A stretch of DNA of 64,000 bases. Origin: Verrucomicrobium spinosum DSM 4136 = JCM 18804 (GTDB taxonomy: Bacteria; Verrucomicrobiota; Verrucomicrobiia; Verrucomicrobiales; Verrucomicrobiaceae). Both the position numbers and the translations under genes were made by a program. Location of the stretch: contig NZ_ABIZ01000001.1 in the NCBI RefSeq assembly GCF_000172155.1, forward strand, positions 5,861,105 through 5,925,104. The letters are read 5' to 3'. Every line of letters starts with the position of its first letter. Within the stretch, counting starts at the first letter, position 1. The notes under the pieces were generated by a model. That model had not been told where the DNA came from. It was given only the letters and a program-made list of their open reading frames with translations, and ran no database searches. Below are positions 12,584-34,538 of the stretch, in pieces.

Positions 12584-15500
12584 CTATCGCATTCTTTTTC
12601 TTCTTGCCCGCAGCAGCGCCTCGATCGACACCAACCCTGCCAAGCCAGCCACCAGCGACCACAGTGATGCAGTGCGGGCAGGCTCCCATGGCCGGGAGAT
12701 CTCCATTTCCACCGTGGCATGATCCTTGAGCTTGCGGAAGTGATACACTGTCCCTGACAGCGGCACGTCCACCGGAAGCGAGAGACGACCCGCTGGCTTA
12801 AGTTGCTGAGACGGCGGTTGTTGTGGCGCAAATGGATCCTGCGGCGCGGTGCCAGAAGCAGTGGCGGCAAAGGGGTCTGCTGCTGCCGGGGCCGCGGGAA
12901 CAGGACTTTCCCAAACCCGGCTCACACCATTCAACATCTTGGCGCGTTGGTGATCACGCGTGGTGTCAAAATACTCGCCGTGTTTTTGCTCCGCACGTTC
13001 CATGCCCCGACGTGCCGCCGAGTTGTACTTGTCCAGCCGGAGGACATCCTGGAAGCTGCGGATGGCGGCATCGTAGTCCCCAATGTTGTAGTAGCTGTAG
13101 CCCCCCTGAAGAAGGCGCTCCCCTTCGGCAACAGGTGCATTCATTGGAACATCTGCAATGACTGGTGCGTTCGGTGGAGTCCCCTGCGGCATGGGCACCT
13201 GCGTTATCGAACCAGACACGACCGTTGCCATCTGCTGCGAGTCGGTGGAATTATTGTAGGCATTGGCCCTTCCCAGATTCGCCCCTTTTGAAGGAGTGGG
13301 TTTTGCCTCCGCATTTTTGGACGCCGCAGCCTCATCCTTGAATTCATTCTGCGGCTTGCCCGCTGCAAAGAACTTGTTGTCCACCGCCACGTTGTCATTC
13401 AGCACCGTGTTGTCCCCGAGTGCCACGGCTCCAAAGTCAGCAGTGGGAGCAAGAAGCTGCCTACCATCGGCCAAGCTGTTGGCTGTCCAACTGTTGCTGC
13501 TCACCCCTCCCTGGGGAATCTGGGGCGGGTCGAATTGTCCCTGCACAGCACCGTTGCCGTTCGTCCGATTCCCGAAGACCGGCACCTTGAGGCGGTTTTC
13601 ATCCAGAACGATGGATTGTTGCTGCAGTTGCTCCTCGATCTGCCGGTTGCTTTTGGACAAGGTAGCATCGTCATCCGCGAGAAATTCCTTCCCCTTCATC
13701 TTGGAAGGCTTGCGGTTGTAGGAACTGCTCTTCTTGTTCTGCTGGTACTGTTTGAGCTCCTTCAGTTGCTTCTCGGCATTCCCCAAGGCTTCTTGCGCGT
13801 CCGCCTGACTGATGTTGGCGGAGCTGGCCACACGATTCAGTCGCATCGCATCGCTCAGTTTCTGCTGGGCTTTTTCATCCTCATAGACTTCCTCAACGAC
13901 AGCTTCCATGTTCCCATCAACGGAGCCCAGATCGTATTTCTCCGGCACCCACACATTCCACAGAGTGCGCTCTGCAGAGAGGCCGACCAGTTCAGGATCA
14001 TCCAGCTTCGTACGCCCCTTCAACCCCTTTCGGTCCGAGGCATTCACACGATAGACCAGCTGCACCTGCTGGGACAGCTCACCGGGGCGCATCTGAATGA
14101 GCGGAATCAGAAACAGGGATTTCCCGTCACGCTCTCCCAGGTCCGCACGCACCCGCTCGCCACCCACTGTCACCGAAACCAGCTCTGCCCCTTCCGGCAG
14201 GCGCAGGGGCAGGAACTGCAGTGACCGGTTGGCCAGGGAGTACACCACTGTCTCCCACCGCTCACCATTCGGGCGCAGGGCGGAGGTGATGTCCGCGAGA
14301 GTGACGATGGCGGCATTCCCCGCAGTGGCCTCCGTGCGTGAGAAGCTGAGCTTCACATCTGCCTGGTCATTCCGCCCGAGGAAGTACTGGGCCTGCCCCA
14401 GTGCCGTCGGCAGATACGGCACATTCTGCGCGACCGTCTCGTCCACCCCTTGCAGGGAGGACTTCACCTCGCTGGCAGACGCATTGTCCACAATGAAAAA
14501 CCGGCGGGCTCGCGTTGCCCCGTCCACCCTCACCAGAGGGAGCGACTGATTTCCCTCCAGCGGCACTTCCCAATCGAGGGTCGCCGCCGCCGTGTTCAAG
14601 ACATCACTCTGGAATCCCACGGTGTACTCCCTCCGGTCTCCCACCACCTTCGACTGGGAATCCCGTAAATTGACTCCTCGCACCCTCGCCTCCGGCAGAG
14701 AGGCGGGCAGGCTCAGTTTCAATTCACGCAACATCCCCTGATCCATCTGCACTCCCACTTGTTGGGAGTAGAGCAGGCCCGCATCCGTCGCCTGGGCCAG
14801 GAGCACGGCATTAACACCGAATTTTGCAGGCTGCGGAAGCAGAGACACGGGTGGCAGATCCGACAATACGGACTCTCTCCCATCCAGGGACTCCCAGCGC
14901 AAGGCACGCTTCACCGTCTGCGGCTCCGTCACAGAGAACACGCTCCTTGACGTCGTGACATCAAACTCCCGCCACTTGGATTCTGGAGCCAAACCAATGC
15001 GCGTCTCCGTGGCAGCATGCGTGGCGAGATAGGCAACGGCCGTGAGTCCCAAGACGCCCTCCACATTCACCGCAGGCAGCGTCACCGCTGCCGCCGCAGT
15101 TCCCGGCGGACGCACCTGAGTCAGATTCAGCACGATCCGCACCTCTCTCAATCCGCTCGCGTCAAACTGGATGAAGACTCCCGTATCATCCCGCTGCCAG
15201 CTCTTGATGCCTGGCCCCGTAAGACTCTGCACCTCATACCCCTTGACGAGCGGCACATACGCCTCATGGAGCGGCAGCCGGCCTGCATGGAGCGTCAGGG
15301 CAGCGAGGATCTCCACCTTCTCCGCGCTCAACTGATAGACCGCTTCCACCTCGCCTGTGACGCCATTCGGTGCCGGCTCCACCTTGTACTTCAGAGTCGC
15401 CTGTCCCGGGGCAATCCAGTACCCAAGACCAACGGCACTGGCATCCGTCCGCCGCTCCAGTTCTGGTCCAGCCACAGGCGTCACGACCAGGGCCGGGGAG

Positions 15501-16591
15501 GCTCGCAGCCCCACCGCCCTCTCAAGCCTCGTCGCCAGGGCACCCACGTACGGCGCGATTCTCTCCCCCGCAGCGCCGGGTGCCGCACGGCTGAAATCAG
15601 CCGTGAAGGTGAACTCATCACGCACCGGGGCCGCTGTGGTAATTTCCGCAAACTTTCGCGCCCCATTTTCGCGAAGGACCACGGACCGGACGCCCGTAGC
15701 GGACCAGCGCAGCAGTTGCAGATCACGATCTACCTCCAGGGTGAACTGGCGGCGCTCGGCTCCGGGGAATCTGAACCGGGCCAAGACGTCCACCCTTTCC
15801 TGCAAAGGGCGCGCCGTCACATAGGATTGCACCTCCGCCACTGCTGGCAAGGCCATGCCGGTTGCCCGTCGGGCGGGTTCGCGCTGTAACTTGAGCTCCC
15901 GCACTCCGGCCAGGGCAAAGGTGAAGACACGACGTCCATCCCTCACCTCTTCAGATACCATTTGAGCCCCCACCCCTGCCCCCAGACCAGGCAAGCCATC
16001 CGTCAGCGGCACCATCACCCGCAGCACACTGGAGACCGCCACCGGGAGTTTGAGAGTCGTTTCCTGCCACCCCTGGGGCAGGGCACGGGAGGCCTTTCCG
16101 GCCAGCTCATGCGCCCCCGGTTTCTCAATGAGGACCGCTCCATCCTTCAGCGGCGCAGCATGGCCATCGAGCGTCCATTGACTGCCTGCCGAGTCCCCCA
16201 GGGCAAACTCAAGCGGCAGGGTTCGCCAATCGCCCTGAGTGGTCGCCTGCAGCCTGCTGCCCACCACCACCTCAGTCTCGCGCACCTCCACCTCATGCAG
16301 CGCCAGGTTCACCACCGCCGCCTCGCCCTTCAGCCCCTCCTGGTCCTTTTCCGGGCGACGGGCCTCCTTGGCCAGGTCCCACAGTTTTTGAAAGGCATCG
16401 TAGTCGAGGTAATAACGCTCCGGCTTCTGCCCCTGCAATGGCCGGGAGGCATCAAAGGGAACGATCACCGAATGCACCGCGGGGTCCGCGGGAAACTCCG
16501 GCTTCTCCTGTGCCCTCAAACCGTGGCTCAAGGCCAGACAAAGAGCCCCTCCGACCACCAGCTTTTGATGGTTGAGTGAGGAATGGTTCAT
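12584..16591 (-). CDS. Giant envelope protein 3: signal peptide, beta-rich ectodomain, TPR segment, single C-terminal anchor
   Basis: A 1335-residue protein of unknown function. A signal peptide (about 1-28, ending LRAQ) leads into a segment with SVIVPF and YYLDYDAFQKLW, equivalent to segments at the same place in the two upstream proteins. The long middle is beta-rich. The stretch LPLRLPEGAELVSVTV is the counterpart of RQFLxxxLPxGA in the others. A Gln/Asn-rich, partly coiled region (about 910-1140) follows, then a TPR-like segment (about 1150-1225: YYNIGDYDAAIRSFQDVL, then AARRGMERAEQ) like that preceding secretin domains in Verrucomicrobiota. A Pro-rich linker and a single helix (LWSLVAGLAGLVSIEALL) with a basic tail (RARRKRMR) end it. 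The start ATG overlaps the upstream stop as ATGA, so translation is coupled. Confidence 0.88.
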   Translation of the reverse strand: MNHSSLNHQKLVVGGALCLALSHGLRAQEKPEFPADPAVHSVIVPFDASRPLQGQKPERYYLDYDAFQKLWDLAKEARRPEKDQEGLKGEAAVVNLALHEVEVRETEVVVGSRLQATTQGDWRTLPLEFALGDSAGSQWTLDGHAAPLKDGAVLIEKPGAHELAGKASRALPQGWQETTLKLPVAVSSVLRVMVPLTDGLPGLGAGVGAQMVSEEVRDGRRVFTFALAGVRELKLQREPARRATGMALPAVAEVQSYVTARPLQERVDVLARFRFPGAERRQFTLEVDRDLQLLRWSATGVRSVVLRENGARKFAEITTAAPVRDEFTFTADFSRAAPGAAGERIAPYVGALATRLERAVGLRASPALVVTPVAGPELERRTDASAVGLGYWIAPGQATLKYKVEPAPNGVTGEVEAVYQLSAEKVEILAALTLHAGRLPLHEAYVPLVKGYEVQSLTGPGIKSWQRDDTGVFIQFDASGLREVRIVLNLTQVRPPGTAAAAVTLPAVNVEGVLGLTAVAYLATHAATETRIGLAPESKWREFDVTTSRSVFSVTEPQTVKRALRWESLDGRESVLSDLPPVSLLPQPAKFGVNAVLLAQATDAGLLYSQQVGVQMDQGMLRELKLSLPASLPEARVRGVNLRDSQSKVVGDRREYTVGFQSDVLNTAAATLDWEVPLEGNQSLPLVRVDGATRARRFFIVDNASASEVKSSLQGVDETVAQNVPYLPTALGQAQYFLGRNDQADVKLSFSRTEATAGNAAIVTLADITSALRPNGERWETVVYSLANRSLQFLPLRLPEGAELVSVTVGGERVRADLGERDGKSLFLIPLIQMRPGELSQQVQLVYRVNASDRKGLKGRTKLDDPELVGLSAERTLWNVWVPEKYDLGSVDGNMEAVVEEVYEDEKAQQKLSDAMRLNRVASSANISQADAQEALGNAEKQLKELKQYQQNKKSSSYNRKPSKMKGKEFLADDDATLSKSNRQIEEQLQQQSIVLDENRLKVPVFGNRTNGNGAVQGQFDPPQIPQGGVSSNSWTANSLADGRQLLAPTADFGAVALGDNTVLNDNVAVDNKFFAAGKPQNEFKDEAAASKNAEAKPTPSKGANLGRANAYNNSTDSQQMATVVSGSITQVPMPQGTPPNAPVIADVPMNAPVAEGERLLQGGYSYYNIGDYDAAIRSFQDVLRLDKYNSAARRGMERAEQKHGEYFDTTRDHQRAKMLNGVSRVWESPVPAAPAAADPFAATASGTAPQDPFAPQQPPSQQLKPAGRLSLPVDVPLSGTVYHFRKLKDHATVEMEISRPWEPARTASLWSLVAGLAGLVSIEALLRARRKRMR

Positions 16592-19500
16592 ACCGCGAAC
16601 TCCTTTCCGCGAATCTGCCGTGATGACGGGACCGGAGTGGACCAGAGCAGGAGTTTCCATAGAAGTCGAAGGCCAAAGCCCAGCAGCCAGCCCAACAGGA
16701 CGGCATTGCAAGAGGGCAACAAGTGGGGGAACAAAAGGGGCGGCACGAACGTGAGCAGCAGACAAAGGAAGAGAGTGGTCATCCAGGGGCGATCACGCCC
16801 GATCAATCGGAACGCCAGGGCTCCAAGGATCACCAGAAGACTGGTGCGGAACAATTGCCAGTCCCAGGAGACGTAGTGAATCACGAGCGGCTCTGCCTTT
16901 TGATGGCCGGAGAAGCCCAGGACTTGCCCAGCAGTCGGAAGGTCCAGCTCCACTGGCAGAATCCCGGCCTTGCTGGACTTGGCAAGTTTGGCTCGCATCC
17001 GCTTCAATGCCTCGGCAGTCATGGACTCAACATAAGCCTCGACCCGATCCAATTGAACCTGAGTTCCCCTGACGATCAGTTGGTTGGTCGACGCGACATA
17101 AACGGCGGACGAACCCTCTGGAAAACTCACCCCGCTGCTGGAGAGGATCTCCAGAGCAGTTCCTTTTCTCGTCAATGCAGAAGGAACTTCGCCCCGTCTC
17201 GCAAACGGATCCATCGGCTCAGTCCCACCCGCATTCATGGTAAGGAAGCCTGGAGGAACCTTGAAAGTTCGTGTGTACATCTCGGCCCCCACATCCGACA
17301 GAGGGACGATCACCACAGCGAATGGCTCTATCCTGTACTTCATTCCGGCCAACTCCGTCACATATCGCAAAGCCTCACTCATGGGCACATCCTTGAGATC
17401 CAGGCTGATCTGCGCCGTGCTGGGCGTGGAACCAGACTTCATAATCAGATTGATTCCCTTCCTTGAAGGATCTCTCTCCACCGTGTCAAAGTCGCGGCTT
17501 TTAATTCGCAGAAACTCAATGGCTTCCTCGATCGATGCTCCTTGGAACTGGACTTGGGGAAAGATGATCCTGTTCATCTTGCTCGTGTAGTAGCCACTGG
17601 CATCCGCCCCCCCCTGTCCTTTGTCGGACTTTTCCGCGAACTCCTCCATGTTCCATTCATCCACTGACGAGTATGCGCGCTGGAGGTCCTCCACAAAGGC
17701 CTCCACCTGATCCAGATTGGGCTGCGTATTGCGAGCCACCAACGCCTCCGTCTCCGCATCGTAGGCCGCATTCGCCCCATCGGGAAACGAGATGCCCTGG
17801 GCCTTCAGCAGATCCACCACTGAAACCAACCCTTTGGGCGGCAACTCACTCTTATGGCCGGTCGCCTTGCTCTGCAATTCCAGATAATGCCGCAGCAGAA
17901 GCTTGTAGCGCTGCGTGTACTGCTCCGTGCCCACATCAGACAAGGGCCCCACCACGATATGGTCTGTCTTGATGACGTATTTGCAGCCGGCCAGTTCTGT
18001 CACGTAGCGTAGGGCTTCAATGAGGGGCACATCTTTCAAATCCAAGCTTATCTGTGCGGTGCTAGGGGTGGATCCCCTTTGCACAACCATCCTCACCCCT
18101 TTCTTCTCCGGATCACTTTCAGCGGCCATCCTGTCGAGCGCACTCATCGCCACCTCCAACGAAACCCCCTCGAAATGCACTTTCGGCAAAATGATTCGAT
18201 TGAACTTCATCGTCAGCGCCTGGATGGCAGCGGCATTATCCGGGCGCTGACTTTCTATCCACCAGTCACTGTCACTCACCTTCGAATCGCCGCCGGGCGT
18301 GAACTCAACGGATGCTGCAACAGGGTACCCTGACGCCGGGCTCCAGTAAGGCCACGGAAGCTCATCCCAGAGAGTCGCCAACAAGCTTCGGGGCACATCT
18401 GCCTGTACTTCTCCCACTTCCAATCCACCGCCGCTGTGATGCAGGGCGTAGCCGTCTGGTGCATGCACCTTCCACTGTGAGCTCAACACCGGCACCCCGT
18501 CCAGCACTGCGGGCGGTTCCAGAGGGGTCTTGCCCCATGAGCCCCATGTGATCGGAGCTGTTTCATAGACCACCTTGGCCGATACAAAATCGGCTTCGGA
18601 GTTCAGCACAGGCAACGGCAACCGCAACTGGTCAGCACCCCCCGCCTGCACGGGCTTCACAGGCCGATCCTGCACCAGTGTGCTCAGCAGCACCGCCCCC
18701 TTGGGAAGCGCCAACGCGAGGAACTGCCGGCCATTGTGCCGTAGCGTGTACGTCACCTCGTGACGCACCGGACCGTTCTGGCCGATGATGCTCACCATGC
18801 GGGCCTGCAACACGAGAGCCCCTGCAAGAGCGGCCGGCTTGTGCCGTTTGGCCGTGATCTGGATGGAGTGTTCTCCACCTGTTGAACTGAAGGCAGCAAT
18901 CACCCGATGTCTCGGCTGATAGCCGGACACCGCTGGAGGCCGCAGCGAGTCCAGGGGCTGCACACCCTTTGTTTCGAACTCAATCTCCGTATCCGTATTC
19001 GCCTCCACCACCCAGGCCGTGGTACGACGTCGGGCTCCGGGCGTGCCGATGTCCGGCAAAGTGGAGTGCAGAGATTGGCCGTCACCGTCTGTCGCAGGCA
19101 GGCTCATCCGGAACCGGATGCTCTCCGCGCCCAGCACTTCCTTCCGTAGCGTGAAGTGCCAGACGCCTGAGGCATCATCCAGCACCTGCTCCGCCACCAG
19201 CGGAGACGTCACGCGGAACAAAGGCGCCAGCTTGGGATCCAGTTTTACATCGAACTTGCGCAGCGGCGCTCCGTTCACCAGCAGTTCGAGCTGCCCTTCG
19301 ATCTCCACCTGCCGTGCTCTCGGCAGTGCATAGACAGTCACTGCGACGTCGTGCACGGGCGCGCGGCGCGACACTTCGAACTGAAGCTGCCAGTCCTTCA
19401 GGCAATACCAGGCCATGCGGCCTTTCACCGGGGAGAGCCTGATGTCACGGGCCTCAAGGCCGGTCGTGGCAGTCACGTTCACCTTCCACGACTCATCAAA

Positions 19501-21264
19501 TGCCAGGGCGACATATCCCGTGGTCCGGGCTGAGCCAGGAACCTGAAGCCCGCTCAGGGCAATGGCTTCGGAGACCGCGCCTTCTGCAGCAGCCGTGCCG
19601 ATTTCCTTGCGAGTCCGCACCACAAAGATCGCATCGGTTCCAGCCGCCAACCCTCGGGGCCAAAACAACTCCAGAGCCTGGCCCACCTGTTTCCATTCCA
19701 GTGGAGCGGCCCCGGTTGACTGAGCCCCCAGGAAGGTTTCCCCGGCTGGCAGTGTCACCGAAGCCATTTCGGTAGTCCCCGCCTCACCATGAAGGGTGAG
19801 AGTCCGGGCAATCGCAGCCTCATGTGCGGACAGGGTGACACTCGTGTCCTGATCCACGCTGAATCGATCCGGTGCGCGGGCCACCGTGATGCCCGTCTTG
19901 GCTGGCGGTGCATCGAAGTCCATGGCCGCGACAAATTCCGGATGCTTGCGGATGTCATGGTGAAGAGCCGCCGCCGCCTTGGCGTCCAGGCCAAACACAT
20001 CCGCTGATTCGCGGAGCACCGCAGGCCAAGTACCATCCGACACCTCCTGCCCAGGTGGAGAACTGCTTCGGAAGAGTTCATCGAACCTCACGTCCACTCC
20101 GGAACTGGCAAGGAGCACACAGATCCAGCCATCAAACAGACTGCCTCGTTCGTCCTTGAAAACTGGCAGCGTCGCTTGTGTCGATCCCGAGAGAGGCAGA
20201 ACCAGGGGCTGCTCAAATCCGATCACGAGGCTCCGCACGGAACCAGGGAGTCCCGCCTCTTCCACCTCCAGACGGTTCCCCTCCACCTTCCACCGGTGCT
20301 GACCGATGTCTGACCTTATTCCTAACACCTGTACCCCGGCAGGCACTTGAATGTGCAACCGGCCTCCTTCCATCTCAGGCAGCAGGGCATAGGTCAGCAT
20401 CGTCACCCCCACCAGCTTGTCCGGGGTGATCTTGCAGATCATTCTTCCACGCACAGCGCTTTCCCGGCCATCCCGACGAGCGGAGTCCGCCCTCTTCCAC
20501 CCCACGGCGAACACCCGCAGCTTGGATTTCAGGGCGTCGTTTAAGTTAGCGGAAGGCACCGAATAGCGCCCGGCATTTTCAACTGCGCGAATTCCCGCTT
20601 TGACCACTTCCCCCTGATAGTTCACCGGCTGCCATCCCGAGGGTAGGTTCAATTTGACCACCGTGGACGATGCGGTTGCCAATGCCGCCACAGGATACGT
20701 CAAGTCAAATCCGGGATGCGGTGACGTCACCATAGCGAAGACGAACTTCAGCTCGTGCCGTCCTTCTCCCTCCGTGAGCACTCGCACACTCTCTTCATCG
20801 GCATGGATCATCACCGGTCGCTGCGACTTCACATCGACCAGCTTCATGCTTGCGCCATCGCGCACCGGCAGCGGAAGTTCGACCTCGCACCAGCCTTTGC
20901 CCAGATTGTTGAGCACATAGCGATACTCCACCTGCACGGTGGGCCCTTCAGACGGCACCGTCACCTCCACACGTGCGTCTTCAACGGCGGTGGTCACCGG
21001 CGGCTCCGCATTCTCAATGGGCTTCACCTTGCCTGCGTCGCGAATGAGGGCCTCGTACTGCTTGGCATCGAGCATCACGGCATTCGGATGCTTCTTGAGC
21101 ACTTCTTCCAGGTGCTTGGTCGGCACCCATAGCTCCACTCGCGTGGCCGGGGTCACCAGAGCCTCCTCTGCGGAAGCTCTCGTCCCCAGAAACGGGCTTG
21201 CAGGAAACAACGACGCCACCAGTGCGAGGCACCATGGACGCCGGAATGAATTCAGGCGGGTCAT
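16588..21264 (-). CDS. Giant envelope protein 2: signal peptide, beta-rich ectodomain, two secretin N-domain modules, C-terminal membrane helices
   Basis: A 1558-residue protein, the largest in the window. It has a signal peptide (about 1-32, ending TRASAEE), then RVELWVPTKHLEEVL and VMLDAKQYEALI, a long beta-rich region, and RQFLALALPKGAVLLSTLV in common with its neighbours. Residues about 1019-1205 and 1230-1420 form two related modules. Each has an NRIIxPxVxFxG start, the STN-like core STAQISLDLKDVP with EALRYVTELAG, xVxVPLSDVG, and a second half with GxSFPEG and a (V/I)V(A/R)(R/N) strand. These match the N-domains of verrucomicrobial secretins, yet no secretin barrel follows; the protein ends in two to four membrane helices (about 1465-1550). 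ATG 21264 has GGAGG 8 bases upstream; ATG 21279, overlapping the preceding stop, is the alternative. Confidence 0.9.
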   Translation of the reverse strand: MTRLNSFRRPWCLALVASLFPASPFLGTRASAEEALVTPATRVELWVPTKHLEEVLKKHPNAVMLDAKQYEALIRDAGKVKPIENAEPPVTTAVEDARVEVTVPSEGPTVQVEYRYVLNNLGKGWCEVELPLPVRDGASMKLVDVKSQRPVMIHADEESVRVLTEGEGRHELKFVFAMVTSPHPGFDLTYPVAALATASSTVVKLNLPSGWQPVNYQGEVVKAGIRAVENAGRYSVPSANLNDALKSKLRVFAVGWKRADSARRDGRESAVRGRMICKITPDKLVGVTMLTYALLPEMEGGRLHIQVPAGVQVLGIRSDIGQHRWKVEGNRLEVEEAGLPGSVRSLVIGFEQPLVLPLSGSTQATLPVFKDERGSLFDGWICVLLASSGVDVRFDELFRSSSPPGQEVSDGTWPAVLRESADVFGLDAKAAAALHHDIRKHPEFVAAMDFDAPPAKTGITVARAPDRFSVDQDTSVTLSAHEAAIARTLTLHGEAGTTEMASVTLPAGETFLGAQSTGAAPLEWKQVGQALELFWPRGLAAGTDAIFVVRTRKEIGTAAAEGAVSEAIALSGLQVPGSARTTGYVALAFDESWKVNVTATTGLEARDIRLSPVKGRMAWYCLKDWQLQFEVSRRAPVHDVAVTVYALPRARQVEIEGQLELLVNGAPLRKFDVKLDPKLAPLFRVTSPLVAEQVLDDASGVWHFTLRKEVLGAESIRFRMSLPATDGDGQSLHSTLPDIGTPGARRRTTAWVVEANTDTEIEFETKGVQPLDSLRPPAVSGYQPRHRVIAAFSSTGGEHSIQITAKRHKPAALAGALVLQARMVSIIGQNGPVRHEVTYTLRHNGRQFLALALPKGAVLLSTLVQDRPVKPVQAGGADQLRLPLPVLNSEADFVSAKVVYETAPITWGSWGKTPLEPPAVLDGVPVLSSQWKVHAPDGYALHHSGGGLEVGEVQADVPRSLLATLWDELPWPYWSPASGYPVAASVEFTPGGDSKVSDSDWWIESQRPDNAAAIQALTMKFNRIILPKVHFEGVSLEVAMSALDRMAAESDPEKKGVRMVVQRGSTPSTAQISLDLKDVPLIEALRYVTELAGCKYVIKTDHIVVGPLSDVGTEQYTQRYKLLLRHYLELQSKATGHKSELPPKGLVSVVDLLKAQGISFPDGANAAYDAETEALVARNTQPNLDQVEAFVEDLQRAYSSVDEWNMEEFAEKSDKGQGGADASGYYTSKMNRIIFPQVQFQGASIEEAIEFLRIKSRDFDTVERDPSRKGINLIMKSGSTPSTAQISLDLKDVPMSEALRYVTELAGMKYRIEPFAVVIVPLSDVGAEMYTRTFKVPPGFLTMNAGGTEPMDPFARRGEVPSALTRKGTALEILSSSGVSFPEGSSAVYVASTNQLIVRGTQVQLDRVEAYVESMTAEALKRMRAKLAKSSKAGILPVELDLPTAGQVLGFSGHQKAEPLVIHYVSWDWQLFRTSLLVILGALAFRLIGRDRPWMTTLFLCLLLTFVPPLLFPHLLPSCNAVLLGWLLGFGLRLLWKLLLWSTPVPSSRQIRGKEFAV

Positions 21265-21278
21265 TTCGGGGTCCTCCA

Positions 21279-24200
21279 TTAGGAGTTGCTCTTGCCATCA
21301 TTCTCCGGGCTGCTGCCCTGGCCAGACGGGGATGCAGGCTCCACCTTGGGGAGTTCCGGCGCGACAGTCTCAGACGCAGCCACCGACGGTGGCGTTGCCG
21401 GGGCAGACGTCACTGGCGCAGGCGTGGGGTTGCTGGCTGGAGGCACGACGGCGGGAGGACTCAGTCGCTTCTTGAACATCTGAGCCCGGGCCTTGATTCG
21501 CTGAATGACTCCACAGACGAACCACAAGACCGCCACCAAGATCGCCGCCAGCACAGCTCCCTTGGCCACCTGCGCATTCGCAGCGCTTACCAGACCGGTG
21601 ACGAGCAGACCTCCCAGCCCGAACAGCACCAGGAAACGCAGCTTGTCCGGCAACGGGTGATGCCAGCGGCGCAGCCCCAGCACGATGACGCCGAAAAACA
21701 CCACCGTCTCCAGGAAATAAGACCAGCCGCGCGAGCGGTAGGAGATGTCTGTGGCAGCCGGTGCCCCCAGTCGATGCAGCACAAAGTTGCGCCCTTGGGT
21801 CGGCACCTGGAAGTCGAAGGTGCTGCGATGTTCCGCAGGAATGGCCGGTGCCGGAGTCCAGTCACCGGAGCTCTGGGTGAACTGGGGACCAAAGGCTGGC
21901 ACCAGCGAGTTGACGATGCCGCGAAAACGGCCCCACCCACGCTCTTTCAGACTCAGGGTCATGGGTCCATTGAATTTCGTGTACTCATGGCTCTCCGGCA
22001 CATAGAGCGCCTGCTGGGTCTGGAGCACCACCGCCACATCCGCCAGCGTGGGTGGCACAATGGAAATGCCGCCCATCCACCCCATCTTCTCGCCCGCCTT
22101 CGGGCTGGGGATCTCATAGACGAACCGTACCGGGAAGGCCGTGTTGCGAGCCGCGGCACCCGAGGGGAGCCGCACCAGGAGATCATCTGAACCTTCCCGC
22201 TTCATAGGCCGCTGAGATTGCGTGGACACGAAGACATCACTGACAAGCTTGGCCCCCTTTGGCAGCTGTACGGTGAGGAACTGCCGGGCATTGTTCTTCA
22301 GCCAGTAGATGACCTCCGTGGTCTGCGCACGATCTGTGGCCACTGCGGTGGTCAACACGGCATGAGTCACCACGGTCTGGGGCACCTCGATATAAGCGTT
22401 GCGCGCCACATCCAGCTTCAAGCTGTGTGGCTGGGTCTTGTACTTGAACGCCAGAAACACGCCTGTCTGCTGGAGCTGATCATTCAGCTCTTTGGGGTCG
22501 ATCTCCTCAAGGTTCTCCGCCAACGGCTCGCGAATCTCCAGGCTGTCATCCTTCACCACGGCCACCTGGCCGGTCTCCTGGAATACCCCTGGCACATGCA
22601 CCTGCTGGAGCTCCACCTTGGCCGCCTCGCCGCCTGCACTGGGTTGCTCCAGGTTCAAGGTAATATTGAACACCCCCTGGCGTTCGTTGCGCAAGGTCAC
22701 CTCCCACAGGGCATAGGCTTCCAGATTGGGCAGCAGCGGGGCCGCCCCCGCCGCCGCTGCGGGCGACTGGTACTCCTTGTTCACCTCTTTCACCAGCGGA
22801 TCCACCAGACGAAGCTCAGCGACCGCAGCCTTGGGCACCGCGAGGACGAACTTGTCGATCGCGGCGTACGCCACATCAAAGGCCAGCGTCCATTGGTGCA
22901 GCGTGGACTGCTCGCGGATCTGCGCCAGCGTCAGCACCTGCACGTTCACCTGAGGCGGCCGCTGTTTGAAGCCCAAGGTGGCCTGGGTCTTGACCGCATC
23001 CCGGTGCCGGAAAGCCAGCGTCAGTTCCCGATTCTCCGCGGTGGCCTGTTTGAAGTTGAGCACATTGACGTCCTCCAGCCTCAGATCCCCGATCTGTTTC
23101 GTGGTGGCCTCCAGACTGGTGTGCACCACCACGCCGATCTTCGCCTCATACCGGTAGCCGGGCGTACTCAGGAAATAAGTCGGCACCCCCAGGTCCTCAG
23201 TGGGAGAGGTCCGCACCTTCTGGCCCTGCACGGTAAACTTGGCACTCCCCAGCGTCTGCGCGTCGAATCGCAGCACGAGGTGGTCTTTCTGCACCGCAGC
23301 ACCATTGACAGTGACCGCCTGCTTTTCCACACTCCATTTTTCCGGCGGCACTCCTACAACTTCCCAGCCAGTCCAGCCATCAGGCAAAGCCACGCGCGCC
23401 TCAAAGAGGCCCACTCGACGGATGTTGTAGGCGAACTCTGTCACCAGTTTCGAGCGATCCCGGTCCACCATGAAGCGGCTCACGCTCTCGACATCCACCT
23501 GGGCCACAGCAGGCACCACGCCCACCTGGAGCTTCGCGGGTTGTTTGAGATAACGGTAGGCAGCGACGTTCACCATGCCCTCCGCGCCAGCACCTGCGGC
23601 GGTCTGTTGAATGAGGCCCTCTCCTGGTTTTGGGGTGACGTCCAGTTGTGATTCGGCCAGGACGCCGATTTCTCCCCGATCCTGCACCGCTCCCTCCACC
23701 ACCACATCTGGAACTACCGCGTCCGCAGGCAGCTTGGGCAGGGGCGACTCGAGCGCCAGCGTGCCGCTCCACTTGTCCTTTACCGGAGCGTTCGTCGAAA
23801 CAATCAACAGCTGACGGTCGCCCTTGGCCTCCAGCTTCCATTCCCTGACATCCGTGCCCGTCACGTTCAGGATTTCCTGCCCGGCTGGCACGCTGAACTT
23901 CAACTCGCTCACGGGAGCCCGCAGGATGCGCAGATCCACGGCGGCCTTGGTGGCCACCGATCCGCCCCGCACCTCACTGGTCACCTTGGTCTGGGCCAGG
24001 ATCAGCGGGGCCAGGGCCGTAGCCGCCTCAGTCTTGCTCCAGGCCACGCCAAACTGGGTGCCGTTGCCAAAGAAGAAGGACAACTCTGTGTCCTCCCCCA
24101 CCGGACGGGAAGTAAAGGCTGCGGCAGGCTTCACCTCAAACTCCCACCCCTTGCCCGGCACCACCGCTGTGAACCGGGACACGGCCGCTGTCGGAAGCCC

Positions 24201-24863
24201 GAGCGGCACGGAGAACTTGCCTCCGGTCTTCGTCACCGGGGCGTAGAACTTGAGCTTCAGCTCATACACCCCTTTGTCCGGCACGATCACGTCATAGCCA
24301 TCTGGCTTGCTGGAGAGCACGGCCTTGCCCGCCTCAGCATCCCCCACGGCGGAAAGCTTGCCGCCCTTGGCCAGCGGAATGGTCAGCCAGCCTTTCTTGA
24401 ATGACTCCACGGTGATCTTTGCTTCCACGGCCAGGAGATCCCCTTCCACCTTGCCCGTGTACTCGGCCCGCGAAACAATTCCATCCTGCGGCGGCTTGGT
24501 CTCCTCCTCGGTCCGTTTGAGATTCAGTTCATTCCAGAGTTCGAGGAATTCCTTGTAAGGCAGGAAGACGCCCTTCCCGCCATCGGTGAACACCTTCTGC
24601 AACTCGGTGTACGGCACATAGATCGTGCGTTCACGCTCACGCACCGGCACCCCGGTGTTCTCTGGTGGCTTGGATGGGACGGGGGGCACCACCACCGGAG
24701 GGGGCGTCGGCACAGGCGCTGGTGCCGGCAGAGTCACGACCGGTGGAGGCACCGGCACCGTTGGCGGAACTGCCGGGCTCGGTGGAGCGGGATCTTGAGC
24801 CGTCAAAAGACGACCCATCGCAAATACTGCGATCAGGGCAGGGAGGATACGACGCGCATTCAT
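21279..24863 (-). CDS. Giant envelope protein 1: signal peptide, Pro-rich linker, beta-rich ectodomain, three C-terminal membrane helices
   Basis: A 1194-residue protein of unknown function, first gene of the three-gene operon. The signal peptide (about 1-22, ending LLTAQ) is followed by a Pro/Val-rich linker (about 25-65), then ERTIYVPYTELQKVF and GVFLPYKEFLELW, equivalent to the starts of the two downstream proteins. The beta-rich ectodomain runs to about residue 1040 and contains RQFLTVQLPKGAKLVSDVF. Three membrane helices (about 1043-1118) and a Pro/Ala-rich tail (about 1135-1194), probably cytoplasmic, end it. ATG 24863 is chosen because the signal peptide starts there; no ribosome-binding site is obvious. 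Its stop codon is 14 bases before the start chosen for the next gene. I do not recognise a named family. Confidence 0.88.
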   Translation of the reverse strand: MNARRILPALIAVFAMGRLLTAQDPAPPSPAVPPTVPVPPPVVTLPAPAPVPTPPPVVVPPVPSKPPENTGVPVRERERTIYVPYTELQKVFTDGGKGVFLPYKEFLELWNELNLKRTEEETKPPQDGIVSRAEYTGKVEGDLLAVEAKITVESFKKGWLTIPLAKGGKLSAVGDAEAGKAVLSSKPDGYDVIVPDKGVYELKLKFYAPVTKTGGKFSVPLGLPTAAVSRFTAVVPGKGWEFEVKPAAAFTSRPVGEDTELSFFFGNGTQFGVAWSKTEAATALAPLILAQTKVTSEVRGGSVATKAAVDLRILRAPVSELKFSVPAGQEILNVTGTDVREWKLEAKGDRQLLIVSTNAPVKDKWSGTLALESPLPKLPADAVVPDVVVEGAVQDRGEIGVLAESQLDVTPKPGEGLIQQTAAGAGAEGMVNVAAYRYLKQPAKLQVGVVPAVAQVDVESVSRFMVDRDRSKLVTEFAYNIRRVGLFEARVALPDGWTGWEVVGVPPEKWSVEKQAVTVNGAAVQKDHLVLRFDAQTLGSAKFTVQGQKVRTSPTEDLGVPTYFLSTPGYRYEAKIGVVVHTSLEATTKQIGDLRLEDVNVLNFKQATAENRELTLAFRHRDAVKTQATLGFKQRPPQVNVQVLTLAQIREQSTLHQWTLAFDVAYAAIDKFVLAVPKAAVAELRLVDPLVKEVNKEYQSPAAAAGAAPLLPNLEAYALWEVTLRNERQGVFNITLNLEQPSAGGEAAKVELQQVHVPGVFQETGQVAVVKDDSLEIREPLAENLEEIDPKELNDQLQQTGVFLAFKYKTQPHSLKLDVARNAYIEVPQTVVTHAVLTTAVATDRAQTTEVIYWLKNNARQFLTVQLPKGAKLVSDVFVSTQSQRPMKREGSDDLLVRLPSGAAARNTAFPVRFVYEIPSPKAGEKMGWMGGISIVPPTLADVAVVLQTQQALYVPESHEYTKFNGPMTLSLKERGWGRFRGIVNSLVPAFGPQFTQSSGDWTPAPAIPAEHRSTFDFQVPTQGRNFVLHRLGAPAATDISYRSRGWSYFLETVVFFGVIVLGLRRWHHPLPDKLRFLVLFGLGGLLVTGLVSAANAQVAKGAVLAAILVAVLWFVCGVIQRIKARAQMFKKRLSPPAVVPPASNPTPAPVTSAPATPPSVAASETVAPELPKVEPASPSGQGSSPENDGKSNS

Positions 24864-25222
24864 GAGGGGGTGGACGAGAGCGGCCGGCACTTGAAAATGC
24901 CAGGGCCCGCAAATTGGCTAAAAACCTACAAAAATCCCTGATATGTGACAAGGTTTTCGGAGAAGAACCGTCTGTCACACGTCATAGACCAGGACCGCCT
25001 GCATCACGTTGCCGCAGCCCTGCCCTTGGAAAAAACGCAGGTTTCCCATCATGCCGCGGTCTCAACCACCTGGAGTCAGCCCCTTGTCACATCTTTGTAA
25101 GGGTATTGTAAGCGGCGAAGTCATCCCTCCGCTTGGTCGCGGTTCACCAAACAATACTCCCAAGCGAGTCGTCCGGACATCTCCTTCGCCACACCTCTGG
25201 CGCAGTCCGGTTGTGCCAACCG
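24864..25222. other. Non-coding leader region upstream of the giant-protein operon
   Basis: About 360 bases without a supported gene. An AT-rich patch at 24910-24960 holds the candidate promoter for the minus-strand operon. The segments CTGTCACACGTCAT (near 24970) and CTTGTCACATCTTTG (near 25083) share a TGTCACA core, also seen near the candidate promoter as TTGTCACATAT on the minus strand. These could be operator-like repeats, but the evidence is only three short matches. Confidence 0.35.
24923..24951 (-). promoter_or_regulatory. Candidate sigma70-type promoter for the giant-protein operon
   Basis: On the minus strand TTGTCA (24951-24946) is followed after 17 bases by TAGGTT (24928-24923), about 60 bases upstream of ATG 24863. 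The -35 matches five of six consensus bases, the -10 only three. The surrounding AT-rich patch stands out in GC-rich DNA. This is a weak prediction from pattern alone. Confidence 0.3.
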
Positions 25223-25660
25223 GCTCACTCGCCATGCCTCCCTTGATCCCCTCCCTGCTCCGCCTACGCAGCAGACCGCGGGGCCGGAGACCCCGCCTCC
25301 TGTACTCTGCAGCCAAGTCACCTCGTCACTTGTTCGTGAGTACAGGAGGCGGGGGTTCCCAGCCCCGCTCACTTGCCAAGCCACGCTTGATCCCCTCCCT
25401 GCTCCGCCCACCCAATAGACCGCGGGGCCAGAGACCCCGCCTCCTTTATTCTGCGGCCAAGTCACCTCGTCACTTGTTCGTGAGTACAGGAGGCGGGGGT
25501 TCCCAGCCCCGCTCACTCACCAAGCGTCCCTTGATTGCTATCCCGCTCCGCCCACCCACAAGACCGCGGGGCCGGAGACCCCGCCTCCTGTATCCCGTGG
25601 CCGTCTGACTTTGTGACTTGTTCACGGGTAAAGGAGGCGGGGTTCCCAGCCCCGCTCAGT
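25223..25660. repeat. Tandem array of three 144-bp units, each with long imperfect inverted arms
   Basis: Units start at 25223, 25367 and 25511 with a spacing of 144, 144 and then 143 bases, followed by the start of a fourth. Within each unit a left arm (GCGGGGCCGGAGA then CCCCGCCTCCTGTA) pairs with a right arm (TACAGGAGGCGGGG then GTTCCCAGCCCCGCTC) around a spacer of about 30 bases containing CACCTCGTCACTTGTTCG. Arms are conserved better than the region between units. One arm recurs at 9816. The palindromic, dispersed nature resembles REP/BIME-like elements. Open frames run through the array on both strands only because 144 is divisible by three. Confidence 0.9.
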
Positions 25661-27847: not shown

Positions 27848-29107
27848 TCAACCAAAAGTGAATTGGCACTCCGGCGGTCTGGCCGCCCCTTCAGCGTCTG
27901 TGACGGACGGGGCACAATTTTCTGCTGCGGCTTCCGGAGACGGGAGCGGCGGCGGCACCGGCGCGACATCGTGACGATGGATCCACACACTCTGGACGAG
28001 TCCCATCATGAACATGCAAACGAGGAGATAGATGCCACCGCAACTGGTGAAAGGCAGAGACTGACCGGTGGTGGGAAACATGCAGATGTTCATCGCCATG
28101 TGCCGCAGAGCGCAGACAAACAACACTGCCACCACTCCCACGACCAGCATCCGCCCCAGTTCATCTCGGGCGGTGTAGGCGACATGAATGCAAAGCAGAA
28201 ACAGAAGCAAAAAGAGCGCCATCTGCAGCAGTCCACCCAAAAGGCCAAACTCCTCCACGATGACAGCAAAGATGAAGTCGTTGATCGCCTCCGTAGGAGT
28301 GAAAAAAGTCCGGTGCACCGAGCGCCCATCTACCTTGCTGGACAGCGGCCCCTTCCCTGCAAAGCCAGCCGATCCTACCGCCACCTTCACCTTGTCGCTC
28401 ATGTAGGCCTCTCCGCGCACCTCCATGCTCGGACTGGTCATCATCTGGACCATGACGTCCACCCGCTTTTTCTGGTAAGGCTTGAGTCCGAAATGGTACC
28501 ACAAGGGCACTAGGCATATCCCAGCAACCAGGAGTAGAACCAGATGCCGTCCCGGGATGCTGGCCACGAGCAGCATCAGGATAAGCACAAGACCAATAAT
28601 CAAAGCCGCCCCCACATCGGGTTGCTTCAGAAAGATCAGAATCGGAATGACTGCGATGCCAATCGCCGTGACGAGCCTCAGCGCGTGATGCCTGAGCAGA
28701 CGGGCGGAATGATGCAAATAGCCTAGCACAACGGCCAAGCCAACGACGGTCGAGACCATCGCGACAGGGGAAGGAGGAATCAAATAAAGCGGCCATAGAT
28801 CGATTGGCCTTGAGGAGCCATGTCTGCCGTGGACCAATTGGGGAAGGATCAACCAGATGACGCCACCCACGTACATCACCCATCCTCCCCATCGGACCCA
28901 CTTGTAGTCGATGAAGGCTGCAATAAAAAAGACGATCATCCCCACCACCGCCCACTGTAATTGAGTGCGCCACATGCCTGACAAATGGAGACCCTCTCTG
29001 AACGAGGACGCATTATAAATCGCCCACACGCCCCATGTGACCAAGGCGAACAGGATGATGACCAGCAGCCAATGGAGACGGCAGAACTTGCGAAGGAGGG
29101 TACGCAT
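27848..29107 (-). CDS. RodA/FtsW (SEDS) family protein, diverged second copy
   Basis: A 419-residue polytopic inner-membrane protein of the SEDS peptidoglycan glycosyltransferase family. It is closely similar to its neighbour at 29332 (shared WGVWAIYNASSFREG, DYKWVRWGGW, FGLKPYQKKRV, VDGRSVHRTFFTP). It keeps the catalytic-region Asp in INDFIFAVIVEEFG. The motif usually written QPSE, which is QPSQ in the neighbour, has become PPSP here, and PFTSYGG has become PFTSCGG. The C-terminal tail is longer, Pro/Ala-rich and unlike its neighbour. It may be a specialised or weakened paralogue. ATG 29107 is chosen by alignment with the other copy. The neighbour gene is 224 bases upstream. Confidence 0.88.
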   Translation of the reverse strand: MRTLLRKFCRLHWLLVIILFALVTWGVWAIYNASSFREGLHLSGMWRTQLQWAVVGMIVFFIAAFIDYKWVRWGGWVMYVGGVIWLILPQLVHGRHGSSRPIDLWPLYLIPPSPVAMVSTVVGLAVVLGYLHHSARLLRHHALRLVTAIGIAVIPILIFLKQPDVGAALIIGLVLILMLLVASIPGRHLVLLLVAGICLVPLWYHFGLKPYQKKRVDVMVQMMTSPSMEVRGEAYMSDKVKVAVGSAGFAGKGPLSSKVDGRSVHRTFFTPTEAINDFIFAVIVEEFGLLGGLLQMALFLLLFLLCIHVAYTARDELGRMLVVGVVAVLFVCALRHMAMNICMFPTTGQSLPFTSCGGIYLLVCMFMMGLVQSVWIHRHDVAPVPPPLPSPEAAAENCAPSVTDAEGAARPPECQFTFG

Positions 29108-29277
29108 GACGAACTCAGGACTGCGAATGATGATCCCACGCACCCCTGGACCAACTCAGACTCAAGCGCCTCGCGAACGCTCAATGCCAATTCACATCAG
29201 TCGAAAATGTCATGAGCGAGCCGCCCCCGCGAACCACATCGCCCCTCCCCGTCTTAAACGATCTTCTTTCAGTTTAA

Positions 29278-29327
29278 GTTTTCTGTCTTGCGTCTTGAAG
29301 TCTTCTGTCTCCCGGCGAAGCCGGGTC
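29278..29327 (+). repeat. 36-bp heptad element, copy C, plus adjoining palindrome
   Basis: GTTTTCT, GTCTTGC, GTCTTGA, A, GTCTTCT, GTCTCCC at 29278-29313. The first heptad has GTTT in place of GTCT. It runs into CCCGGC-GAA-GCCGGG (29311-29325), and the stop codon of the minus-strand RodA gene follows within a few bases. Confidence 0.8.
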
Positions 29328-29331
29328 AGGG

Positions 29332-30528
29332 TCAAAACTCATCCATTTCACCCTCGTCATCGCGCCGCCCCTTCTTCTTGACCGGGGAAATGTTGCGGTG
29401 GATCCAGACACTCTGAACCATGCCCATGAGGAACATGCATACGATCAGGAAGGTACCGCCATAGCTGGTGAAGGGCAGGGGCAGACCGGTGATAGGCATC
29501 ATGAGGATGTTCATCCCCATGTTCTGCATGGAGTGGGCAAAAAGCATGCCCACGATCCCGACCACAATGAGCCTGCCTAAATTGTCCCGGGCGTAGAAGG
29601 ACACAAAGATGCACTGTAACAACAACAGAGCCATGACCACAATCTGCAAGAGCCCCCCTCGAAACCCAAACTCCTCCACAATCACGGAATAAATGAAGTC
29701 GTTGATGGCTTCCGTAGGCGTGAAGAACGTGCGATGCACCGAGCGCCCGTCCACTTTGCTGGAGAGAGGCCCCTTCCCTTCGAAGCCCGCCGAGCCCACG
29801 GCTATCTTCACCTTGTCTGCCATGTAGGCATCCCCCAGCGTGTCCACCTTCTTGTTGGTGAGCATGTTGACGAACACCTCAACGCGCTTCTTCTGGTAGG
29901 GCTTGAGGCCAAAGAAATAGGCAACAGGAAGGATGCACATCACCCCCAAAAACAGGGTGATGAGGTATCGGAAAGGAATGCTGCCCACCAGCAGCATGGC
30001 CACTACCACCGGGCCGTAAACAGCAGCAGAGCCGAGGTCAGGCTCCTTTAGCACCATGAGCATGGGCACTCCTGCCAGGATGCCCGACACCCCGAGACGA
30101 AGCCAATGATGCCTGAAGACCGGCGCGATCCGGTGCAGATCCCCCAAGACGACGGCGATCGAAACGATGGTCGCCACAATGGCCAACTGGGACGGCTGAA
30201 CGTCCACAGGGCCCAGGTGAATCTTACTATGGGCACCTTTTTCGCCGAACCCGATGAACTTCACCAAGATCAACCCTGCGATGCCAGCAAGGTACATGAT
30301 CCACCCGCCCCATCGTACCCACTTATAATCGACCAACGCGGCCGCGCCGAATACTCCCAGGCCCAACACCGCCCACTGCACCTGGCTGCGCCAGACCGTG
30401 GAGAGATTCATCCCTTCCCGGAAGGAGGAAGCATTGTAGATCGCCCAAACACCCCACACGATCAATGCGATCATGTTGAGCGCCAGGATCCAGTTAAGAC
30501 CAAGAAATTTGCGAAAAAGGGGGGTCAT
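29332..30528 (-). CDS. rodA: RodA-like SEDS peptidoglycan polymerase
   Basis: A 398-residue polytopic inner-membrane protein that would polymerise glycan strands for side-wall growth together with a class B penicillin-binding protein. Family features are VDVQPSQLAIVATI (the QPSE-like motif), KEPDLGSA, INDFIYSVIVEEFGFRGG with the catalytic-region Asp, and GLPLPFTSYGGTFL. About nine to ten membrane helices are visible. It is the better-conserved member of a tandem pair. ATG 30528 gives the usual RodA N-terminus. Both ends of the gene are bordered by 36-bp heptad elements in opposite orientation. No mreBCD or PBP2 gene is in the window, so elongasome membership rests on family resemblance. Confidence 0.9.
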   Translation of the reverse strand: MTPLFRKFLGLNWILALNMIALIVWGVWAIYNASSFREGMNLSTVWRSQVQWAVLGLGVFGAAALVDYKWVRWGGWIMYLAGIAGLILVKFIGFGEKGAHSKIHLGPVDVQPSQLAIVATIVSIAVVLGDLHRIAPVFRHHWLRLGVSGILAGVPMLMVLKEPDLGSAAVYGPVVVAMLLVGSIPFRYLITLFLGVMCILPVAYFFGLKPYQKKRVEVFVNMLTNKKVDTLGDAYMADKVKIAVGSAGFEGKGPLSSKVDGRSVHRTFFTPTEAINDFIYSVIVEEFGFRGGLLQIVVMALLLLQCIFVSFYARDNLGRLIVVGIVGMLFAHSMQNMGMNILMMPITGLPLPFTSYGGTFLIVCMFLMGMVQSVWIHRNISPVKKKGRRDDEGEMDEF

Positions 30529-30529
30529 T

Positions 30530-30565
30530 GACAGACAGAAGACTAGAAGACCAAAGACCAAAGAC
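30530..30565 (-). repeat. 36-bp heptad element, copy D (inverted)
   Basis: Read on the minus strand: GTCTTTG, GTCTTTG, GTCTTCT, A, GTCTTCT, GTCTGTC, followed almost at once by the rodA start codon at 30528. With copy E at 30653 it forms an inverted pair about 90 bases apart between rodA and the OppF-like gene. A short palindrome, GGATTCGCC with GGCGAATCC, lies nearby near 30570-30592. Confidence 0.8.
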
Positions 30566-34292: not shown

Positions 34293-34538
34293 GTTAACCC
34301 GAAGTTCTAAATTGATTCGCAAAAGGGAGAGTTTCCGCATTCGCGGGATGAACGATCAATACTATATTTGCCATTCCACACAAGCCTGTTTTTACTAGAA
34401 TTTCCAGAAGTTGCAAGCAGCTTCCTAAGATTCTGACACTTTGCCAGTCACGAAGATCGAACCCTATTACATTACCGCAGCGTGAAGCATGCCTTTGCCC
34501 TTTGCCAAGGCTGCAACGTCGCTTAGATTCCTTATCCC

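Follow-up and report, generated by a model that had tools for sequence, protein, structure and literature searches.

A conserved operon of giant paralogous envelope proteins in Verrucomicrobium spinosum carries copies of pilus secretin modules

We investigated three consecutive genes, here named A, B, and C, in a 64,000-nucleotide stretch of the genome of Verrucomicrobium spinosum DSM 4136 (contig NZ_ABIZ01000001.1, positions 5,861,105 to 5,925,104; this stretch is referred to as the window, and coordinates are those of the window unless another locus is named). Judged by profile comparison, gene order, and phylogeny, our data show that the three giant proteins are paralogues, that their three-gene operon is conserved, and that B and C carry modules repeatedly acquired from resident secretins.

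All three genes read as open reading frames (ORFs) on the minus strand, where the features located within them below also lie, and their sizes are those given in a preliminary description of this DNA. Gene A (21279..24863, 1194 aa) encodes a signal peptide recognized by eye, a proline-rich linker, a predicted beta-saddle ectodomain, three transmembrane segments, and a proline-rich tail. Gene B (16588..21264, 1558 aa) encodes a signal peptide, likewise by eye, an ectodomain, two STN modules, and three transmembrane segments, and gene C (12584..16591, 1335 aa) a signal peptide by eye, an ectodomain, a helical linker, a tetratricopeptide repeat (TPR) module, and one transmembrane segment. The source genome is a single contig of 8,220,857 bases, to which Verrucomicrobium sp. 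BvORR106 and BvORR034 are closely related.

Secretin modules and their resemblance to the resident secretin

The NCBIfam model NF042912 (Amuc_1098 pilus secretin) matched B with 330.2 bits, in stretches at profile positions 239-462 and 243-458, and C with 101.5 bits at profile positions 151-239, both below the model's cut-off of 750 bits. These matches stop by position 462 of the 805 in the profile, and none of A, B, and C had a Pfam Secretin match, the signature of the pore, at E values of up to 1. The domains present are of the N-terminal secretin type, namely STN in B and TPR in C. The upstream STN module of B (residues 1010-1194, 17683..18237) is 53% identical to L086, a secretin encoded by the same genome. 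The membrane-proximal STN module (residues 1218-1415, 17020..17613) is 75% identical to L086 in a global alignment and 69% by BLAST, and no secretin pore follows it. The TPR module of C (residues 1154-1234, 12890..13132) is 78% identical to L086 globally and 70% by BLAST.

The window genome encodes four long Amuc_1098-type proteins, three of them over the cut-off. L086 belongs to the main secretin class and sits beside genes of the Amuc_1101 (PilM-like), Amuc_1100, and Amuc_1099 families. According to an excerpt of one report, an Amuc_1098-family protein is the outer-membrane PilQ in Akkermansia (PMC4960237). The STN modules of B and the TPR module of C are homologous to this family and up to 78% identical to the secretins of the window genome; B and C differ from the family in lacking the pore, in scoring 330 and 101 bits against 750, and in bearing the pieces on membrane-anchored giants. 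Two further proteins were noted in this context: a short Amuc_1098-type protein of the window genome (L089, G000:C1:7582999-7584795; 665-aa frame, 612 bits, under the 750 cut-off), and the C protein of Brevifollis (L073:18006-22916), which carries an additional STN-like piece in its N-terminal region, ahead of the ectodomain, where the membrane-proximal STN module of B matches residues 157-216 (E 8e-5).

We compared 17 STN and 8 TPR modules, taken from the operons of related genomes, with a set of 34 secretins from 15 genomes. Modules were taken only if they covered 80% of the query, partial STN pieces (such as the second in G013) being uncounted, and two over-cut-off secretins, one in G004 and one in G008, lie outside the 34. 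Every one of the 10 membrane-proximal STN modules and of the 8 TPR modules was closer to the secretin of its own genome than to any compared secretin or operon module from a different genus, with the narrowest margin, 59 versus 58%, at the TPR of G008. The B protein of G022 was 60% identical to its own secretin versus 52% to the next among the best six BLAST matches.

The phylogenetic data point the same way. A single clade for the 10 membrane-proximal STN modules among the 34 secretins was rejected by the approximately unbiased (AU) test (log-likelihood difference 168, p-AU 3.1e-7). Gene names defined the operon rows of this test, but the group was not fully fixed beforehand, the 7 upstream STN rows having been dropped after the 51-row tree was viewed. 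In this tree strongly supported branches force at least 6 changes, and all 10 modules fall with the main secretin class and none with the second class (13 rows). The 51-row tree, which like the identity comparison kept all 17 STN rows, needs 6 changes, of which 5 are forced, and the TPR tree also needs 6, on only 81 columns.

Cassettes of the same kind occur outside A-B-C, where they were compared over the best six BLAST matches each. A 347-residue piece of the sigma-linked G031 protein with vWA and YfbK_C domains is 69% identical to its own secretin versus at most 35% to others, and an 81-residue TPR piece of the sigma-linked vWA protein of G143 is 90% identical to its own secretin versus 48%. 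A G293 protein encoded at the vWA position shows 59% to its own secretin versus at most 29%, and the giant of G055 shows 68% versus 60% to a same-genus secretin. These own-secretin pieces in vWA proteins and giants indicate that in several lineages the cassette found its way into various proteins and sites.

Paralogy, conservation, and predicted fold of the operon proteins

Profiles of A (13 aligned orthologues), B (12), and C (9) matched one another from the opening motif through the last ectodomain domain (A against B, E 3.4e-50 over 832 columns; A against C, E 3.4e-45 over 829; B against C, E 1.2e-33 over 841). Six control pairs with one side reversed, one of which was A against itself, scored 20-36.5 versus 304-442 for the real pairs, and the best control reached E 0.007. 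Five ectodomain slices of A mapped onto B and onto C in the same order. The opening motif ERTIYVPY...LPYKEFLELW of A (residues 78-110, 24534..24632) is common to B and C in the profile alignment, and the best-conserved C-terminal ectodomain domain (A residues 800-975, 21939..22466), which contains the RQFL..LPKGA..S motif, matched B at E 2.1e-21 and C at E 2.1e-15. The preliminary description had noticed a shared opening and a QFL..LP.GA motif and had proposed ancient paralogy; the profile alignment recovered both motifs, and the ectodomain comparison (E 3.4e-50 to 1.2e-33) supports the relationship. A also contains an internal repeat (residues 283-452 versus 453-610, profile E 2.5e-12). Elsewhere in the window genome, L038:2660-5745 (G000:C1 ~8.098-8.102 Mb) encodes a short A paralogue of 591 aa with the same opening motif and no transmembrane segment flagged in the hydropathy scan. 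It adjoins a CreD-family membrane protein (PF06123, E 2e-6), and a similar pair is found in G030 (L054).

Matches to A occurred in 22 of 38 related genomes (E <= 1e-3, own genome included), 18 being strong and 4 weak (G030, G031, G035, and G037). Among the 27 named loci, 13 have A-B-C, four of them on contigs that end within C, and 7 have A followed by a single B-C fusion of 2439-3380 aa. The contigs of the remaining 7 stop too early to tell, and none of the 27 disagrees. The order A-B-C or A-(BC) thus holds in all 20 named loci with sufficient contig; L079, which is cut short, and L085, which has the fusion, derive from the same isolate and are possibly two halves of one locus. In wider samples, both including the own genome, A matched in 25 of 141 genomes of the class and 31 of 194 of the phylum. 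At L193-L197, which lie outside the class and make up 5 of 10 further loci, A is followed by a B-C-type ORF of 2386-2621 aa. The other homologues mostly consist of one giant protein of about 2090-2600 aa bearing two A-like ectodomains; at L148, two ORFs (522 and 1540 aa) take the place of the single giant.

This survey of gene neighborhoods upholds the unity of the operon. Its fixed gene order, together with the B-C fusion, suggests one complex; the single assembly first proposed gains from the fusion in 7 of 27 named loci and from the pairing of A with a B-C-type ORF at 5 of the 10 further loci, and we infer the complex itself. At the A/B junction (TAATGGAGGACCCCGAAATG), the stop codon of A overlaps an ATG at 21279. 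The ATG at 21264 has GGAGG 8 nt before it, favoring it as the start of B, and A and B are then 14 bases apart. B and C overlap as ATGA. The same junctions, with the two possible starts of B, had been described before.

Hydropathy assigned three transmembrane segments to A (residues 1046-1120, 21504..21728), whose predicted model likewise finishes in three helices, three to B (residues 1471-1540, 16645..16854), and a single C-terminal one to C (residues 1309-1327, 12611..12667). The signal peptides previously ascribed to A, B, and C are plausible by eye, but the hydropathy scan at 1.6 did not flag the N-termini. With these putative signal peptides and the C-terminal membrane segments, A, B, and C are predicted to reside in the inner membrane with their ectodomains facing the periplasm. 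The earlier designation as type I membrane proteins fits C, with its one segment, but not A and B. A juxtamembrane hairpin common to the three, seen by eye, was discarded because the profile comparison was not significant (2.4%, 0.5%).

The ectodomains matched no Pfam, NCBIfam, or PADLOC model at its cut-off, and a role in anti-phage defense was dropped for want of a PADLOC match. A sequence-profile search of the PDB gave no match for A or B; the matches for C were confined to the TPR end of the profile and comprised designed proteins of the TPR type and, weakly, two chains of SPINDLY. We therefore considered AlphaFold models of A residues 66-1135 (25 sequences; predicted local distance difference test score, pLDDT, 79; predicted template modeling score, pTM, 0.40) and C residues 36-975 (18 sequences, pLDDT 79, pTM 0.42). 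Both consist of tandem beta-sandwiches. In the VIA comparison, the N-domain of M1 aminopeptidases matched A residues 285-450 (Z about 12-12.6; root-mean-square deviation, rmsd, 3.2-3.9) and C residues 86-241 (15869..16336; Z about 12, rmsd 3.2-4.0). The top VIA match for both proteins was ribophorin I over two domains (Z ~13, low pTM), covering A residues 126-454 (23502..24488) and C residues 247-587 (14831..15853; Z about 13). The multi-domain rmsd of ~20 arises because the linkage between domains differs.

The agreement of two separate models makes it likely that the ectodomains are built of M1-N/ribophorin-like beta-saddle domains, a fold that does not indicate function. The tentative resemblance to ribophorin I/OST1 is confined to the predicted fold of the two domain pairs: A and C have no Pfam ribophorin match, share 9-13% identity with it over the aligned parts, and, together with B, have many more domains plus the secretin modules. 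For the M1 aminopeptidases (LTA4H, ERAP1, and PepN), the likeness is a single-domain match to the N-domain (Z ~12, rmsd 3.2-4.0, ~150 residues), whereas Pfam finds no Peptidase_M1 match in A, B, or C. A likeness between ribophorin I and aminopeptidase N-domains has reportedly been described; our search of the open-licence literature found no paper on it. The fold of the C domains also matches a chain of TFIID. Foldseek placed an integrin at the top for C and ribophorin at the top for A; integrins and alpha-2-macroglobulin-type chains were set aside as multi-domain beta matches with an rmsd of ~18-53, and the viral fold library gave poor multi-domain matches only, with no clear lead.

Among the papers listed in searches of the open-licence literature, we found none on the three-gene operon or on the capture of secretin N-domains. 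The operon appears new in composition. The first statement that no named system has this composition holds for the ectodomains; the preliminary description had missed the STN and TPR modules and the predicted M1-N/ribophorin-like fold.

The surroundings of the operon were also inspected. Its neighbors in the window recur solely in two same-genus loci, the remaining matches being weak, and flanking genes were abandoned as a clue to function since none is kept beyond the genus. In the long gap upstream of A, a 144-nt unit occurs three times in tandem at 25220-25651, with long inverted repeats rich in GC. Two adjacent genes at 27848-30561 form an FtsW/RodA-family pair, and the 925-aa protein encoded at 31563-34340, with no Pfam match at E 0.01, is also found near the operon in two same-genus genomes.

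Docking to the secretin apparatus and alternative readings

Secretins are outer-membrane gates common to pili and to type II and type III secretion. We give a probability of about 0.5 to the reading that a single assembly of A, B, and C is anchored in the inner membrane and docks to the pilus secretin apparatus via its secretin look-alike modules. The ectodomains, each with about 900 residues of chained M1-N/ribophorin-like beta-saddles, would probably assemble together in the periplasm. The pore-less TPR and STN modules of B and C, copied from the own Amuc_1098-type secretin, would probably dock to the secretin apparatus, either by joining the base of its N-terminal ring or by engaging the partners in the inner membrane that usually keep the secretin in place. 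The STN of a giant stands before the transmembrane segments, which could place the module for contact with the ring base or the partner. In Neisseria, the N0 domain of the secretin PilQ is the binding site of the inner-membrane protein PilP, as stated in an excerpt of the relevant report (PMC3441751). A need to match such a partner would explain why the modules came repeatedly from the resident main-class secretin. The docking and the drive to match a resident partner are, like the complex, our inference; the repeated uptake of secretin pieces by the operon suggests a machine of the envelope that couples to the channel of the pilus.

Several observations weigh against this reading. The operon is unlinked to pilus genes, and G010 and G017 have secretins but no operon. 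The two tested neighbors of L087, the other main-class secretin of the window genome, matched no known pilus family. B lacks STN in G006, G033, and G016, and the A-(BC) loci L193-L197 gave no STN or TPR match. The preference for the own secretin is also incomplete: only 4 of the 7 upstream STN modules are closer to their own secretin than to those of other genera, and against the operon copy of the same genus the own secretin wins for three of seven membrane-proximal STN modules (G003, G004, and G014), loses for three (G000, G001, and G018), and ties for one (G011). Among the cassettes outside A-B-C, that of the G081 giant is 58% identical to its own secretin versus 59% to a same-genus one, and that of the G047 giant fits no secretin clearly. 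With pTM values of 0.40 and 0.42, the models do not fix the domain arrangement. Passive gene conversion, moreover, could stand in for the logic of matching.

Such conversion would maintain the likeness if A-B-C were instead a self-contained scaffold or an adhesive envelope layer, whose modules serve for self-oligomerization or spacing. We regard this alternative as somewhat unlikely. It is favored by the existence of members without the cassette, by flanking genes that are unconserved outside the genus, and by nucleotide tracts ~66-81% identical to the own secretins, which could recombine. Cassettes are found, however, at differing sites and in differing proteins (B, C, the vWA protein, and the middle of a giant), which implies that they were acquired anew and not only homogenized. 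The exclusive placement of the membrane-proximal STN modules in the main secretin class (10 of 10) also argues against a scaffold.

Some homologues of A are linked to regulatory genes. Among 20 loci of the class, a sigma gene lies beside the giant in 8 (4 by Pfam and 4 by BLAST clustering), those of L154 and L158 being divergent and with no vWA partner found. A long vWA plus YfbK_C protein lies beside the giant in 9 (6 by Pfam and 3 by clustering), and L052 and L055 (same order) have both by BLAST. These extracytoplasmic function (ECF) sigma/vWA-YfbK_C operons (L159-L167 and others) resemble A-B-C in that the giant has two A-like ectodomains and that the vWA-position proteins of G031, G143, and G293 bear own-secretin cassettes; they differ in that no sigma or vWA gene accompanies A-B-C loci among the matches listed. 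BLAST of 9 vWA proteins and 8 sigmas gave, among these matches, no operon neighbor in the window or at the other loci of the family and only A-B-C themselves via TPR plus one short low-complexity match. In the window genome, an ECF-like sigma gene directly precedes a gene for a 1039-aa YfbK-type protein (L188:6319-9635, G000:C1 ~1.631-1.635 Mb).

It is conceivable, though improbable, that A-B-C is the sensor of an envelope-stress circuit and reports the secretin or envelope state to a signaling pair located elsewhere in Verrucomicrobiaceae. The sigma and vWA-YfbK_C genes beside the giants, the own-secretin cassettes of the vWA-position proteins, and the sigma-YfbK pair of the window genome at 1.63 Mb are in line with such a role. 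Opposed to it are the missing sigma and vWA neighbors at A-B-C loci among the matches listed, the identity of only 30-34% between the YfbK protein of the window genome (L188) and the operon type of other lineages, and the presence of YfbK in G010 and G017, which lack A. The N-terminus of the vWA protein is anti-sigma-like in our reading of its sequence, but it matched no Pfam anti-sigma model. It is very improbable that the assembly serves as a chaperone of exported or glycosylated proteins or as a platform that presents them, the part ascribed to ribophorin I for oligosaccharyltransferase: ribophorin I tops the VIA comparison for A and C (Z ~13), but its fold is common also to aminopeptidase N-domains and a TFIID chain and does not show function, and no flanking gene is kept beyond the genus.

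To our knowledge, little is known of what holds secretins across the periplasm in the phyla of the Planctomycetes-Verrucomicrobia-Chlamydiae (PVC) group. A large protein family that no library model covers and that repeatedly acquires the N-terminal portion of its resident pilus secretin would suggest that this gate has a new partner. As a tentative extension of docking to the secretin, for which the odds are short of even, Verrucomicrobiota may possess an undescribed class of giant beta-saddle envelope machines that are kept matched to their own pilus secretin by repeated copying of its N-terminal TPR-STN part and that plug into it or read it out, the sigma-linked branch sensing the state of the secretin or pilus at the transcriptional level. 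The secretin cassettes offer a clear example of modules tracking the host's own copy, and the A-B-C family provides a concrete set of proteins for testing how verrucomicrobial pili are built or sensed.

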